Shown: in pieces, positions 11,130 to 20,804 of the stretch | Layout: each line of letters opens with the position of its first letter | How positions within the stretch are numbered: position 1 is the first letter of the stretch | The notes under the pieces: model-generated | Database searches by the model: none | Seen by the model: only the letters and a program-made list of their open reading frames with translations | Told to the model about the DNA's origin: nothing | Made by a program: the position numbers and the translations under genes | Source of the DNA: Bacteroidales bacterium | GTDB taxonomy: Bacteria > Bacteroidota > Bacteroidia > Bacteroidales > UBA932 | Reading direction: 5' to 3' | Assembly (NCBI GenBank): GCA_017557535.1 | Contig: JAFYYM010000077.1 | Coordinates: 48,750-112,749, forward strand | DNA length: 64,000 nucleotides

Positions 11130-11483
11130 ATGAAAAAGATTCTTGAAGTACTCCGTTACGGAAATGGCGACATCATTTTCAAGACAGATGTCGATCCCCT
11201 GAAGAACCCCGATGAGATTAACAACATCCTGATCCAGACCATGATGTCCATGGCCACAAAGCTATGGGGAGGCAATGAGCAGGCGGTTTTGGCCATGATC
11301 AGAGTGCTTTCTATAGCCGACCTTGCACTGAGCGTCAACAGAAAAGAAATGATTCGCTGGCTTGACAGGGAGTCCGGAAACCTGTACAAGGCATTTCAGG
11401 ATGCGAATGCGGCTTTTCAAAAAGATGGAGGCAAAATCATGACATTCGGCCCTGGAGTCATGCCTCCAAAGACAAAAAGCTGA
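11130..11483 (+). CDS. Small protein of unknown function paired with the RAYT transposase
   Basis: 117 residues from ATG at 11130. I do not recognise the family. The protein is mostly predicted helical, with no signal peptide or membrane segment; the middle (NEQAVLAMIRVLSIADLALSVNRKEMIRWL split about 50-80) is amphipathic, and the C-terminus is Gly/Pro rich (FGPGVMPPKTKS). Its stop codon is 2 bp before the ATG of the transposase gene, so both are translated from one message. It could be an accessory or regulatory subunit of the RAYT system. Its reading frame uses ordinary codons for this window, which supports it being real. Confidence 0.65.
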   Translation: MKKILEVLRYGNGDIIFKTDVDPLKNPDEINNILIQTMMSMATKLWGGNEQAVLAMIRVLSIADLALSVNRKEMIRWLDRESGNLYKAFQDANAAFQKDGGKIMTFGPGVMPPKTKS

Positions 11484-11485
11484 AC

Positions 11486-12418
11486 ATGAGACGGACTGTT
11501 CCCAGACAGATGCCTGACGGCAGCGTCAGGTATGTCCAGCCATATCATGTGAGCATGGAAGGCCAGGAAAAGGTAGTTCTCTGCCGGGATGCCGAAGACT
11601 ACGACGCCATGGTCAAGATCATCTGCGTATGTGCCAGAAGGAAAAACGTGATAGTTATCATCTACACGGTAGTGTCTAATCACAGTCATGCCGCCATCCT
11701 GGCGGTTTGCCAAGAGGATGCCGATGCTTTCTGCGAAGAGATCAAAAGGATGTATTCCATGTGGTTCAGCCGGAAATATGGGAGAACAGGTGTGATGAAG
11801 CAGGTCGATGTCAAAGCCCTATTATTAGACAGCGAATGGTATACCCGTAACGCTCTCGCTTACGTGCCTAGGAATGCGCTGGACAATGGATGTAATGTCG
11901 ATGAATATCCTTGGTCAGGTTATCGGGCGATGTTTTCTGGCAAGTCACCTACCGGTTGCCCTGTCGCCTCAATGAGCAAGGAGGACTGTAGATTTGTCAT
12001 GCACACTGGTGACAAGCTGAATGATGTCCCTTGGCTGGTGGATGATGAAGGCCGGCTAATTCCCAAGAGTGTCTGCGACTATTACTATCTGGAACAGGCC
12101 TTTGAGCACGACCAGGCTTTCTTTCTAAAGACAATAGGTGGTCAGAATTCAGCGGAAATGAAACACAAGCTTATTGATGCTCCTCGGAACAGGCTGACGG
12201 ACAACGAGTTCCTCAAGATTGCCGAGGAAACGAGCCTTCGGTGGTTTTCGTCAAACATCGACCAGGATTCCATCGAGCGAAAGACCCGTCTGATCCCCTA
12301 TCTTTTCAGGACAGTCAGGACTACCGTACCACAGCTCTCCAGAGTATTCGGGCTCTCCCGGGAAGCCGTTTCACGCATCCTCAGCCGCCCCAAACCCACC
12401 TTTCCTGGGAAGGTCTGA
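11486..12418 (+). CDS. RAYT-like Y1 (HUH) transposase with C-terminal helix-turn-helix
   Basis: 310 residues. The N-terminal half resembles REP-associated tyrosine transposases of the IS200/IS605 superfamily: a metal-binding HUH-type motif NHSHAAIL (65-72, with Ser in the middle where a hydrophobic residue is common), a probable catalytic Tyr126 in RNALAYVPRNAL (family motif usually YIHLNPVRAG), and YPWSGYRAMF (141-150; usually YPWSSY). The C-terminus (about 279-301, PQLSRVFGLSREAVSRIL) looks like a helix-turn-helix, as in Bacteroidetes members of this group. Such proteins nick and join single-stranded DNA at REP palindromes, and REP-like repeats flank this gene. They are usually single-copy domesticated genes rather than free insertion sequences. 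Confidence 0.75.
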   Translation: MRRTVPRQMPDGSVRYVQPYHVSMEGQEKVVLCRDAEDYDAMVKIICVCARRKNVIVIIYTVVSNHSHAAILAVCQEDADAFCEEIKRMYSMWFSRKYGRTGVMKQVDVKALLLDSEWYTRNALAYVPRNALDNGCNVDEYPWSGYRAMFSGKSPTGCPVASMSKEDCRFVMHTGDKLNDVPWLVDDEGRLIPKSVCDYYYLEQAFEHDQAFFLKTIGGQNSAEMKHKLIDAPRNRLTDNEFLKIAEETSLRWFSSNIDQDSIERKTRLIPYLFRTVRTTVPQLSRVFGLSREAVSRILSRPKPTFPGKV

Positions 12419-12573: not shown

Positions 12574-12618
12574 AGGGCTACAAGTAAAGCCAGGCAAAAT
12601 GCCTGGCTTTACTTGTAG
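12574..12618. repeat. 19-bp perfect palindrome abutting and overlapping the tRNA-Arg 3' end
   Basis: Left arm 12578-12596 (ctacaagtaaagccaggca) and right arm 12600-12618 are perfect inverse copies around an aaa loop. The right arm shares its last three bases with the 3' end of the tRNA gene. With the flanking aggg, each arm equals the tRNA 3' end (agggactac on its strand) plus 15 bases of downstream DNA. No T-run follows on the minus strand, so it is not a standard terminator, though the RNA hairpin could affect tRNA 3' processing. Confidence 0.75.
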
Positions 12619-18571: not shown

Positions 18572-19533
18572 ATCAAATCCTCCAACATCCTTTTCATCAC
18601 CACCTGTGCGGAAACCACCCGGTTAGCGGCTTCCGGAATGACTATGCTCTTCGGCGAATCAATCACCCCATCCGAGACGATCATGTTCCTGCGCACGGGA
18701 AGGCAATGCATGAAGTAAGCGTTGTCCGTGACAGCCATGTGACGCTCGTCCACTACCCAGCCCATGTCCTTGCTGAGAATCTTCCCATAATCAGCCGGGT
18801 TCGTTACACCAGGGCAGCTCCAGTTCTTCGCATACACGAAATCAGCACCCTCCAGGGCCTTCATCTGGTCATACTCGACTACGGCATCACCGACAAAACG
18901 GGGATCCAGCTCATAGCCTTCCGGATGGGTGATCACAAAGTCCACATCGGCGGCGTTCATCCATTCCGCGAAAGAGTTCGGGACAGCCTGAGGAAGAGAG
19001 CGGGGATGCGGAGCCCAGGTCATGACAACCTTCGGGCGGGTTTTCGTCTTGTATTCCTCAATGGTGATCAGGTCAGCGAAGGCCTGACAGGGGTGCACAG
19101 TCGCCGATTCAAGGCTTATAACCGGCTTCCCCGAATATTCTATGAATTGGGTTAGAATTGATTCCGCATAGTCAAACTCCCGGTCGGTAAGACCGGCGAA
19201 AGAGCGCACTCCGATGATGTCGCAGTAGCTGCCTATCACAGGGATAGCTTCCCTAAGATGCTCGCTCTTGTCCCCGTCCATAATGACTCCCAACTGGGTC
19301 TCGAGTTTCCAGCTATCAGCGCCAACGTTGAGGACAATAGGATTCATACCGAGATTGAGAGCGGCTTTCTGGCTACTGAGTCGTGTCCTCAGGCTGCTGT
19401 TGAAAAAGATCAGGATGATGGTTTTGTCCCGACCGAGCTCCTTCCATGCGAAAGGAGTCGCTTTGACTTGTTTGGCTTCCTGAAGGGCAGACGCCAGGTC
19501 GCCTATGTCACTCACATGAAAGAAAGATCTCAT
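18568..19533 (-). CDS. argF': N-succinyl- (or N-acetyl-) ornithine carbamoyltransferase
   Basis: 321 residues. It carries the carbamoyl-phosphate motif FFNSSLRTRLS (about 44-54), SATVHPCQAFADL and the C-terminal HCLPVRRNM. These, and the start MRSFFHVSDIGDLASAL, match the Bacteroides argF' type, which carbamoylates N-succinyl-L-ornithine rather than free ornithine. In the loop VIMDGDKSEHLREA the residue before Glu-His is Ser. From memory, the B. fragilis enzyme has Pro there and the acetyl-specific Xanthomonas enzyme has Glu, so a small side chain fits succinyl use. It overlaps argD's stop and argB's start by 4 bp each. Confidence 0.92.
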   Translation of the reverse strand: MRSFFHVSDIGDLASALQEAKQVKATPFAWKELGRDKTIILIFFNSSLRTRLSSQKAALNLGMNPIVLNVGADSWKLETQLGVIMDGDKSEHLREAIPVIGSYCDIIGVRSFAGLTDREFDYAESILTQFIEYSGKPVISLESATVHPCQAFADLITIEEYKTKTRPKVVMTWAPHPRSLPQAVPNSFAEWMNAADVDFVITHPEGYELDPRFVGDAVVEYDQMKALEGADFVYAKNWSCPGVTNPADYGKILSKDMGWVVDERHMAVTDNAYFMHCLPVRRNMIVSDGVIDSPKSIVIPEAANRVVSAQVVMKRMLEDLI

Positions 19534-20804
19534 AGTGATTCCTCCAATGCTCTAATGAATATGTCAACGTCTTCTTTACTGAGCGTCAGGGGCGCGAGGA
19601 GACGAATCATGTTCTTGCCTGACACGCCTGTGAACACACGCTTCTCGAAGAGCAGCTTCCGACGCAACTCCGCTATCGGTCCATCAAACTCAACCCCGAT
19701 CATCAAGCCCCTGCCCCTAACCTCTTTGATAGCTACACTATTCCCACTCCCGTTAGCTGAAGGTGCCTTCGGCGGCTCGACCGCCTCGCACAGCTCGGCC
19801 CCACCGCTCGCTTCGCAAAGCGAAGCTCCGATCCCCCCTCTTAACGTGCCGAGGGTGGCAGTGGTCTCGCCATCCGAAGCACCTTCAGCTAACGAGAAGA
19901 GGCGTGATTTGAGGTATTCACCGACCTCATAGGCGTTTTGGACGAGTTTCTCGTCTTTGATGATGTCGGCGACGGCGATGGCGGCGGCCATGGCGAGATG
20001 ATTACCGCCGAATGTGGTGCCAAGCATTCCTTTGACAGGCACGAACTCAGGAGAGATCAATACACCACCTATCGGGAAGCCGCCCGCCATGCCCTTGGCC
20101 ATAGTGATCAAGTCAGGACGGATTCCTGTCCATTGGTGGGCGAAATATTTGCCTGTACGCCCGCATCCGCTCTGAACCTCATCAAGAATCAGAGGCACAC
20201 CAGCCTCTTTTGTAACATCCCTGAGACTCCTCATGAAGTCGTCATCCGGGATGATGATTCCTCCCACCCCCTGGATGCCCTCAATTATGACAGCGGAGAT
20301 GTCTCCTTTGGAGAGTTCCTCCTTTACCGCCGCGATGTCATTCATCCCGACGAAAGTCACCTCGTGCCAGCTATTAAAAGGAGCCCTTATCTTTGGATTA
20401 TCGGTCACGGCGACAGCTCCGGAAGTGCGCCCGTGGAAGGCGCCCTTGAAAGCTATGACACGGCGCTCCCCAGTGTGGAAAGAGGCCAGTTTCAATGCGT
20501 TCTCATTAGCCTCAGCTCCTGAGTTGCAAAGGAATAAGGAATAATCCGGATAACCTGACAACTCCCCTATCTTCTCCGCCAGTTCCATCTGGAGAGGGTT
20601 GCGGACACTGTTGGAATAGAATCCTATTTTGCTTAGCTGGTCCGTTATAGTCTCCACGTAATGAGGGTGGCAGTGGCCTACGGATATGACTGCGTGACCG
20701 CCATAGAGATCCAGGTACTCGGTGCCCTTGTCGTCCCATATTCTCGTCCCCTTGGCCCGAACCGGCGTCACGTCAAACAAACTGTATACATCAAATAGTT
20801 CCAT
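19530..20804 (-). CDS. argD: Acylornithine aminotransferase carrying an in-frame palindromic insertion
   Basis: 424 residues; the class III PLP aminotransferase fold is clear (GGHAVISVGHCHP, GAFHGRTSGAVAVT, LILDEVQSGCGRTGKYFAHQ, MAKGMAGGFPIGG with the PLP lysine, TFGGNHLAMAAA). It converts acyl-glutamate semialdehyde and glutamate to acylornithine. Family members here would have about 376 residues. The extra 48 codons (about residues 304-352, between YLKSRLFS and SVAIKEVRGRG) coincide with a 144-bp element bounded by 16-bp inverted repeats. The insertion lies on a variable connection just before the strand that leads to RGRGLMIGVE, away from the PLP site in sequence. The frame is open, so an active enzyme with a surface loop is plausible. 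Confidence 0.95.
   Translation of the reverse strand: MELFDVYSLFDVTPVRAKGTRIWDDKGTEYLDLYGGHAVISVGHCHPHYVETITDQLSKIGFYSNSVRNPLQMELAEKIGELSGYPDYSLFLCNSGAEANENALKLASFHTGERRVIAFKGAFHGRTSGAVAVTDNPKIRAPFNSWHEVTFVGMNDIAAVKEELSKGDISAVIIEGIQGVGGIIIPDDDFMRSLRDVTKEAGVPLILDEVQSGCGRTGKYFAHQWTGIRPDLITMAKGMAGGFPIGGVLISPEFVPVKGMLGTTFGGNHLAMAAAIAVADIIKDEKLVQNAYEVGEYLKSRLFSLAEGASDGETTATLGTLRGGIGASLCEASGGAELCEAVEPPKAPSANGSGNSVAIKEVRGRGLMIGVEFDGPIAELRRKLLFEKRVFTGVSGKNMIRLLAPLTLSKEDVDIFIRALEESL
19751..19894. repeat. 144-bp palindromic element inserted in frame in argD
   Basis: The ends are perfect 16-bp inverted repeats, cgttagctgaaggtgc (19751-19766) and gcaccttcagctaacg (19879-19894); after one bulged base five more pairs follow (ttcgg/ccgaa). 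Inside are further hairpins: gcttcgc-aaa-gcgaagc (19810-19826) and ggcgg-ccgcc (19771-19785). Its length is exactly 48 codons, it has no stop in the argD frame, and it is more GC-rich than the gene around it. It resembles in principle the palindromic elements of Rickettsia that insert in genes in frame. No second copy was found in this window. Confidence 0.8.

Follow-up and report, generated by a model that had tools for sequence, protein, structure and literature searches.

The 64-kb window (the whole stretch of DNA that was analysed) carries an argD gene on its reverse strand, and inside that gene, read on the opposite strand, lies a palindromic element with a structured core between two paired arms. 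The features of the locus are as follows:

19530..20804, reverse strand: argD, the host gene, a 424-aa protein of the acetylornithine/succinylornithine aminotransferase family (assigned from the ORF, the family model and the solved relative 1vef_A)
19751..19894, forward strand (the orientation of the core, antisense to argD): the whole palindromic element, its limits uncertain by a few bp
19751..19782, forward strand: left arm, private to the argD copy, with an outer 16 bp that pairs perfectly with the right arm
19783..19799, forward strand: core hairpin H1, in which GCC/GGC covaries with GTC/GAC in other copies
19803..19832, forward strand: core hairpin H2, with an ACCG/CGGT base of which one pair is mismatched in the argD copy
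19836..19862, forward strand: H-type pseudoknot, part of whose motif served to select copies
19836-19840 with 19851-19855: pseudoknot stem S1, CCCTC with GAGGG
19844-19850 with 19857-19862: pseudoknot stem S2
19863..19894, forward strand: right arm, complementary to the left arm

A sequence-only reading of this DNA had described perfect 16-bp ends, the lack of a stop codon and a local rise in GC at 19751-19894, and all three were confirmed. The element is 144 bp long with terminal inverted repeats of exactly 16 bp, both perfect, the argD frame passes through it without a stop, and its GC content is 0.653, against 0.526 in the remainder of argD and 0.507 in the window. Folded as RNA, the 144 bp reach -73.1 kcal/mol compared with -47.0 +/- 3.5 kcal/mol for 200 shuffles (z = -7.5). 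Perfect 16-bp inverted repeats within 200 bp of each other occur at two places in the window, the argD element being one; the second is a 19-bp perfect inverted repeat that forms a hairpin (12578-12618) after a Y1 transposase-like frame (11366-12416, forward strand).

At the protein level, the argD family model covers residues 4-307 and scores 361 bits against a curated whole-protein cut-off of 410. Alignment with 1vef_A pairs query residues 304 and 357 with 323 and 327, which sets 52 residues against 3, and the net excess amounts to 49 residues relative to 1vef_A and 47-51 compared with relatives (counted by hand from hit coordinates); the large in-frame excess proposed earlier therefore stands, though not as exactly 48 residues. 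The alignment places the insert, which may, as the sequence-only reading proposed, form a surface loop. The loop is empty in 26 of 29 other homologues aligned, the five most distant of which may be paralogous class-III aminotransferases, while the remaining three comprise one with the same element (genome G032), one with a different repeat (G026) and one truncated before the loop. The gap anticipated in ArgD relatives is thus present, and the opposite outcome that the sequence-only reading had envisaged—the segment in most ArgD homologues—did not occur. Although the frame is open through the segment, as it would be in an old ArgD domain or around a chance palindrome, these 26 homologues without the insert and the 28 matches in the own genome (below) led us to reject both readings, to which we assign a negligible probability. 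In the ArgD of G026 (L067), the same loop is occupied by a GTCATCCTGAGCG-type repeat (CHPERSD...) in six tandem copies, all in frame; the loop thus accepts unrelated translated repeats.

The argD insert is one of many. BLAST of the 144 bp against its own genome returned 34 places (E up to 10), and a covariance model built from 32 copies returned 28 matches (E up to 0.01). Across the genus, 58 of 101 genomes (own included) have a match to the model at E up to 1e-6, the number per genome ranging from 0 to 30. Among 295 genomes drawn from the order, matches were found in the own genome and in one of another genus of the same family, though this survey may miss weak copies because the best 13 candidates per genome were scored. 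A scan with the pseudoknot motif over one genome per species found at least 116 stretches; among the matches listed all are from Bacteroidales and none is from Rickettsia, the record titles read Bacteroidales, Bacteroidia or Rikenellaceae, and the source, where these titles name one, is ruminant stomach or horse faeces. The dispersed repeat belongs to one Bacteroidales genus and a few relatives. An Rfam search gave no match near a curated score, a phage search with argD gave no match, and viral carriage was set aside, as the sole viral motif match (L211) was missed by the covariance model and looks like chance. In the open-licence literature searched, we found no description of such an element in Bacteroidales. 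Copy number, distribution, empty sites and host genes bear out the earlier proposal of a family in Bacteroidales that resembles the Rickettsia palindromic elements (RPEs) and sits in frame in protein genes, and we consider it almost certain that this is a mobile repeat family with in-frame copies in genes.

What the copies have in common is a core of ~80 bp made up of hairpin H1, hairpin H2 and the H-type pseudoknot; the arms outside it are unlike between copies and complementary within each copy. The 16-bp ends had been offered as a signature of the family, and in this the sequence-only reading was mistaken: arms vary among copies, the ends are private to the argD copy, and a 14-base arm pattern searched in the own genome recovered its two arms plus one unrelated place with one change. 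Conserved ends between copies were not found, inner arms being common to orthologous or young copies only. In a test of 107 copies (those of 163 motif hits with a recognised H1 and enough flank), the mean arm pairing score was 28.1 for a copy's own arms and 10.9 for swapped arms, under a lenient score that carried some arms into the flanks. The larger set of 195 copies requires the motif CCTCT N2-5 TGCCGAGGGTG[G/T]CA, and this requirement by itself accounts for part of the invariance seen there.

Pairing was also examined in a structural alignment. The loci held 44 motif hits, one of which, at a contig end, was dropped; with three copies lacking a recognised H1 added by hand and one span shortened, the alignment had 43 rows, and exclusion of eleven (ten short-H1 copies and the copy at L062:1339) left the 32 rows of alignment A2. 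In A2, 92.5% of cells are paired and the covariation score was reached by 0 of 500 shuffles and 0 of 6 slid versions. Covariation is seen at the arm pairs, at a single H1 pair and at both pairs by which the pseudoknot stem is lengthened. Each of the four innermost arm pairs occurs as two or three pair types and is Watson-Crick in every copy. Doubly changed pairs show a modest excess (13 vs 11 in shuffles; equalled in 7 of 500) and further pair types none (31 vs 30.3; 223 of 500).

The kinds of mismatch in the arms indicate at which level they are kept paired. With a stricter score, in which G-T and A-C weigh the same (copies scoring <8 dropped, 104 kept), the arms contain 3043 Watson-Crick pairs, 189 gaps, 64 G-T and 79 A-C mismatches, and 215 mismatches of other kinds, for the most part C-T, as seen in the internal loop of one subfamily. 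Because selection on RNA should favour G-U, and G-T is not preferred over A-C, arm pairing points to DNA. Inner arms are better paired than outer arms, a gradient that fits structural selection no less than correction. One subfamily (L112, L130, L155, L199, L206) has short arms and a common outer sequence (GCGCTC ... CACCCGC) and may be a larger composite element.

Many copies lie within protein genes. In 75 of the 195 copies a frame runs open across the element and for 70 codons or more to either side; 65 copies are outside coding sequence, 12 are at contig ends, and the other 43 have long frames on both sides with no through-frame, a class that may include copies between two genes. The in-frame copies comprise 44 antisense and 31 sense to the gene, and two of the six possible frames dominate (40 and 19 of 75), yielding two recurrent peptides. 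Ten hosts were examined with NCBIfam, several at scores below curated cut-offs, and were named as ArgD, IspH, aldehyde dehydrogenase, an RsmF-like protein, MATE, E2 of 2-oxoacid dehydrogenase, MetH (two copies), chorismate synthase, FtsK and IspE. Pfam adds GH3, ribosomal RNA dimethylase, PurD and QueH; its match to chorismate synthase runs straight across the insert (residues 11-377), and it places both MetH inserts between domains. Three further hosts we take, from their sequences by eye, to be fmt, TrmO and an ABC protein. The host proteins at L030, L033, L045 and L057 contain further repeat-like peptides (by eye; LHPQGGLRGVPLRH, AAELRPYSAGTPA, LASPDRSHPRLVRGRG), which suggests additional families of translated repeats.

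The insert is very probably translated as part of the enzyme. A different outcome would follow if the element acted as a bypass or splicing element, its mRNA segment being skipped or removed and the protein left normal; bypass elements have been reported for Magnusiomyces mitochondria (PMC6649704). The strong mRNA-level hairpin and the conserved enzymes that serve as hosts would fit such an element, yet skipping would not need the dominance of two frames among six, and copies stand in both orientations, so that we hold bypass or splicing to be very improbable.

Orthologous copies reveal how the arms change. In 19 orthologous pairs, picked by hand and for the most part with arms that could be aligned (the E2 pair and two of ispE were left out), 466 stem pairs could be compared: 404 are the same, 34 are double changes with pairing kept, 25 are one-sided and 3 are double changes without pairing, a tally that leans towards pairing because it is restricted to pairs present in both copies. 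One-sided changes are the only kind between the close copies of ispH and of ftsK, and double changes appear in more distant pairs. When the argD copy of G000 is set against that of G032, 23 pairs can be compared, of which 9 show double changes and 1 a one-sided change; with arms only 62% alike, these two copies are likely, though not certain, to be of shared origin.

Cores, by comparison, are strongly conserved. Core identity exceeds that of third codon positions in 14 of 14 pairs (0.80-1.00, mean 0.90, vs 0.43-0.87), with 3 of 17 pairs lacking measurable arms. Unrelated copies have cores that resemble each other almost as closely (means 0.80-0.87), so the core is either constrained or turning over everywhere. 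In 5 of the 14 pairs the arms are at most 67% alike, and there separate recent insertions are possible. Insertion under arm correction alone does not need such high core conservation; some selection or turnover is required, or, for those five pairs, independent recent insertion. For the arms themselves, upkeep at the DNA level, by template switching or conversion between arms, is in our view somewhat better than an even proposition.

The core can also be found turned around at one and the same site. When sites were grouped by conserved flanks, 34 groups resulted (the first of which merges several sites through other repeats), and in 11 both flanks are kept with cores opposed. Flips with clearly related arms occur, among others, at a G000 site that lies in no long frame (L038 and L189 vs L102 and L264), in ispE (L036 vs L103), between L102+6276 and L254, where flanks are 91-94% alike, and between L041 and L114, L202 and L265, and L047 and L284. 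For 10 of the 14 flipped pairs measured, the cores have an identity of 0.58-0.77 as they lie and of 0.87-0.98 once one of them is turned; in the other 4 (L102/L254 and three fmt pairs) the in-place values of 1.00 are artefacts of free end gaps, and for L102/L254 the inversion is visible in the printed sequences. As the asymmetric inner arm parts of L102+6276/L254 are turned together with the core, the exchange points lie in the perfect outer arms. With named records that are all MAGs or uncultured assemblies, misassembly could account for an inversion, an explanation disfavoured at the frame-less G000 site and in fmt because two genomes agree on each side. At the E2 site, arms differ between the opposed copies and independent insertions are possible.

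These patterns bear on a reading in which the element is a functional structured site, RNA or DNA, kept by selection at each locus, e.g., as a regulatory RNA or a protein-binding cruciform. Conservation of the core beyond third codon positions in every pair speaks for such a site, as does the fact that inner arms, H1 and the extension of the pseudoknot covary, and some copies seem by eye to lie just upstream of start codons. A site of this kind is harder to reconcile with the use of both orientations within genes, with both core directions at a single site, with G-T mismatches that are not in excess over A-C, and with 43 of 101 genus genomes that have no match at E 1e-6; we regard it as unlikely. 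The copies seen near start codons are short-H1 copies at L028, L050, L052 and L054, seemingly a few dozen bases upstream and antisense to the gene.

Empty and recently filled sites show what is added on insertion. At the site of L031, the DNA of G065 is 80% identical, lacks arms and core, and has a single CTAG, whereas the occupied site has CTAG at both ends. The TrmO site is empty in G000, G072 and three more relatives and holds the full element in two relatives; in G065 (L290) it carries an arms-only palindrome, CTTCTGCCAG-T-CTGGCAGAAG, composed of the outer arms, which is possibly an excision or deletion scar. Young copies in several genes have a common 122-bp unit that starts with GCCAG and ends with CTGGC, a pattern present in 9 copies at 7 sites. 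Outside this unit, a mean of 7.8 further bases are complementary, private to each site, against 2.6 with swapped flanks, although 16% of swapped values reach 7.8 and the outer pairs number only 2 in one copy. Counted by hand, the net lengths at TrmO and GH3 agree with the unit plus 13 to 16 bp. We infer that insertion or later repair may make an inverted copy of flanking DNA, the assignment of the native side being a tentative one from few residues. Direct repeats at the palindrome ends were close in number to those of shuffled flanks, i.e., we found no general target duplication. The chorismate synthase gene at L036 (aroC) retains half of an older copy in the right flank (near 2056-2183), and the element there appears to be nested in the older one or to have replaced part of it.

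Could the arms predate the element? Were only the core to move, inserting into pre-existing hairpins that become its arms, arms would differ between copies as they do, and a site with arms and no core would be expected, as in G065. The empty sites (L031, ArgD, IspH, GH3) are without arms, and young copies at unrelated sites have the inner 20 bp of their arms in common, both of which count against pre-existing palindromes, an improbable account overall. The related proposal that arms are taken wholly from the target was rejected because neither arm is present at empty sites; the target may have supplied the outer, site-specific part and no more.

As a possible mover we considered transposases. 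A Y1 transposase (Y1_Tnp) is present in 78 of 101 genus genomes, and the element occurs in 55 of those 78 and in 3 of the 23 that lack Y1 (p = 1.2e-6, on raw genome counts that ignore kinship); in the 47 best genomes the figures are 31 of 38 with Y1 and 0 of 9 without. Viewed from the element, 55 of 58 bearing genomes have a Y1 transposase, and the other three, in which no Y1 gene was detected, are incomplete. A DDE transposase as driver was dismissed, as the element occurs in 18 of 36 and 40 of 65 genomes (p = 0.30), i.e., with no association. A model search of ten fetched Y1 loci (2-3 kb each, from 34 matches in 13 genomes) found no copy. Of 16 Y1 matches in five genomes, one is 1.6 kb from a copy among those listed. 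Mobilisation by a Y1/HUH transposase is on these sequence associations a candidate to which we give somewhat less than even weight.

Several observations on Y1 genes stand beside this. The match near a copy is Y1-like, below cut-off (G032:C8:29719-29982), and lies ~1.6 kb from the ksgA copy (L045). In the window, the frame at 11366-12416 (forward strand) encodes 350 aa, is Y1 transposase-like below the curated cut-off, and is 8.2 kb from the argD copy. Differing Y1 genes at L233, L234, L235 and L236 are each flanked by their own distinct hairpin (by eye). An argD arm and a Y1 flank seemed to share 14 bases, but only 13 of 14 agree and the likeness was put down to chance.

Taken together, the element is probably a selfish, RPE-like palindromic DNA element that moves as a folded strand and whose arms are renewed by foldback template switching. 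In this conceptual model (i) the element would move as a folded single DNA strand; (ii) a unit of ~120 bp, core plus inner arms, would insert; (iii) in foldback synthesis the 3' end would pair with its own 5' arm and copy a few flank bases, giving the site-specific outer inverted repeat; (iv) later template switching or recombination between arms would keep drifting arms complementary and sometimes flip or delete the core; and (v) insertions would survive in tolerant loops and linkers when length and frame fit, and then be translated. A bolder version, which we put forward tentatively and hold to be less probable than not by some distance, is a self-rewriting palindrome in which each insertion copies host DNA into a new arm, the arms evolve as one and the core flips within housekeeping genes. 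If true, one DNA stretch would provide a single enzyme loop with two alternative peptides, both free of stops, and the element would be both a mobile element defined by shape rather than end sequence and a protein-coding invertible segment.

Copies of RPEs share arm sequence, and Wolbachia has elements similar to RPEs. Compared with RPEs as known by description, the Bacteroidales element is in another phylum, its arms vary among copies and its core inverts in place. The two are alike in being ~150-bp palindromes dispersed in one bacterial group with copies in frame in genes; in Rickettsia many are in frame in unrelated genes and are regarded as selfish (PMC10969869). RPEs are reported to lose repeat identity over time (PMC6649704), whereas the arms described here stay complementary via double changes. 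Nematomorph mitochondrial coding palindromes, for which template switching has been proposed, likewise have matched inverted repeats within coding sequence, but their arms are the genes' own coding sequence and no shared mobile core is described for them in the sections consulted of that article (PMC6649704).

Among systems with a transposase, REPIN/RAYT offers dispersed hairpin DNA repeats linked to Y1 transposases, and the Bacteroidetes Y1 subclass 2.6 is listed with atypical secondary structures (PMC6006769). The likeness lies in a dispersed hairpin repeat and in the co-occurrence with Y1 transposases noted above; the Bacteroidales repeat differs in its length (~110-150 bp), its frequent location in genes, its pseudoknotted core and variable arms, and in having no copy in the ten Y1 loci. 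Like MITEs, the element is short, non-autonomous, palindromic and dispersed, and unlike them, as they are characterised in the consulted part of the source (PMC10969869), it is without conserved terminal repeats and without general target duplication. No parent transposon with the same ends was noticed among the sequences examined. What goes beyond the known kind is the combination of private self-matching arms, concerted DNA-level evolution of those arms and in-place inversion of the core.

For annotators, the family accounts for odd inserts in otherwise ordinary enzymes. With dozens of copies at known codons, orthologous sites, flips and a possible scar, it makes testable how palindromes stay palindromic and, likewise, how elements without conserved ends are recognised. 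Selfish palindromes that sit in frame have passed for a peculiarity of Rickettsia and Wolbachia; if gut Bacteroidales harbour a second family, abundant and unrelated, translated mobile DNA would prove a recurrent source of new protein segments.
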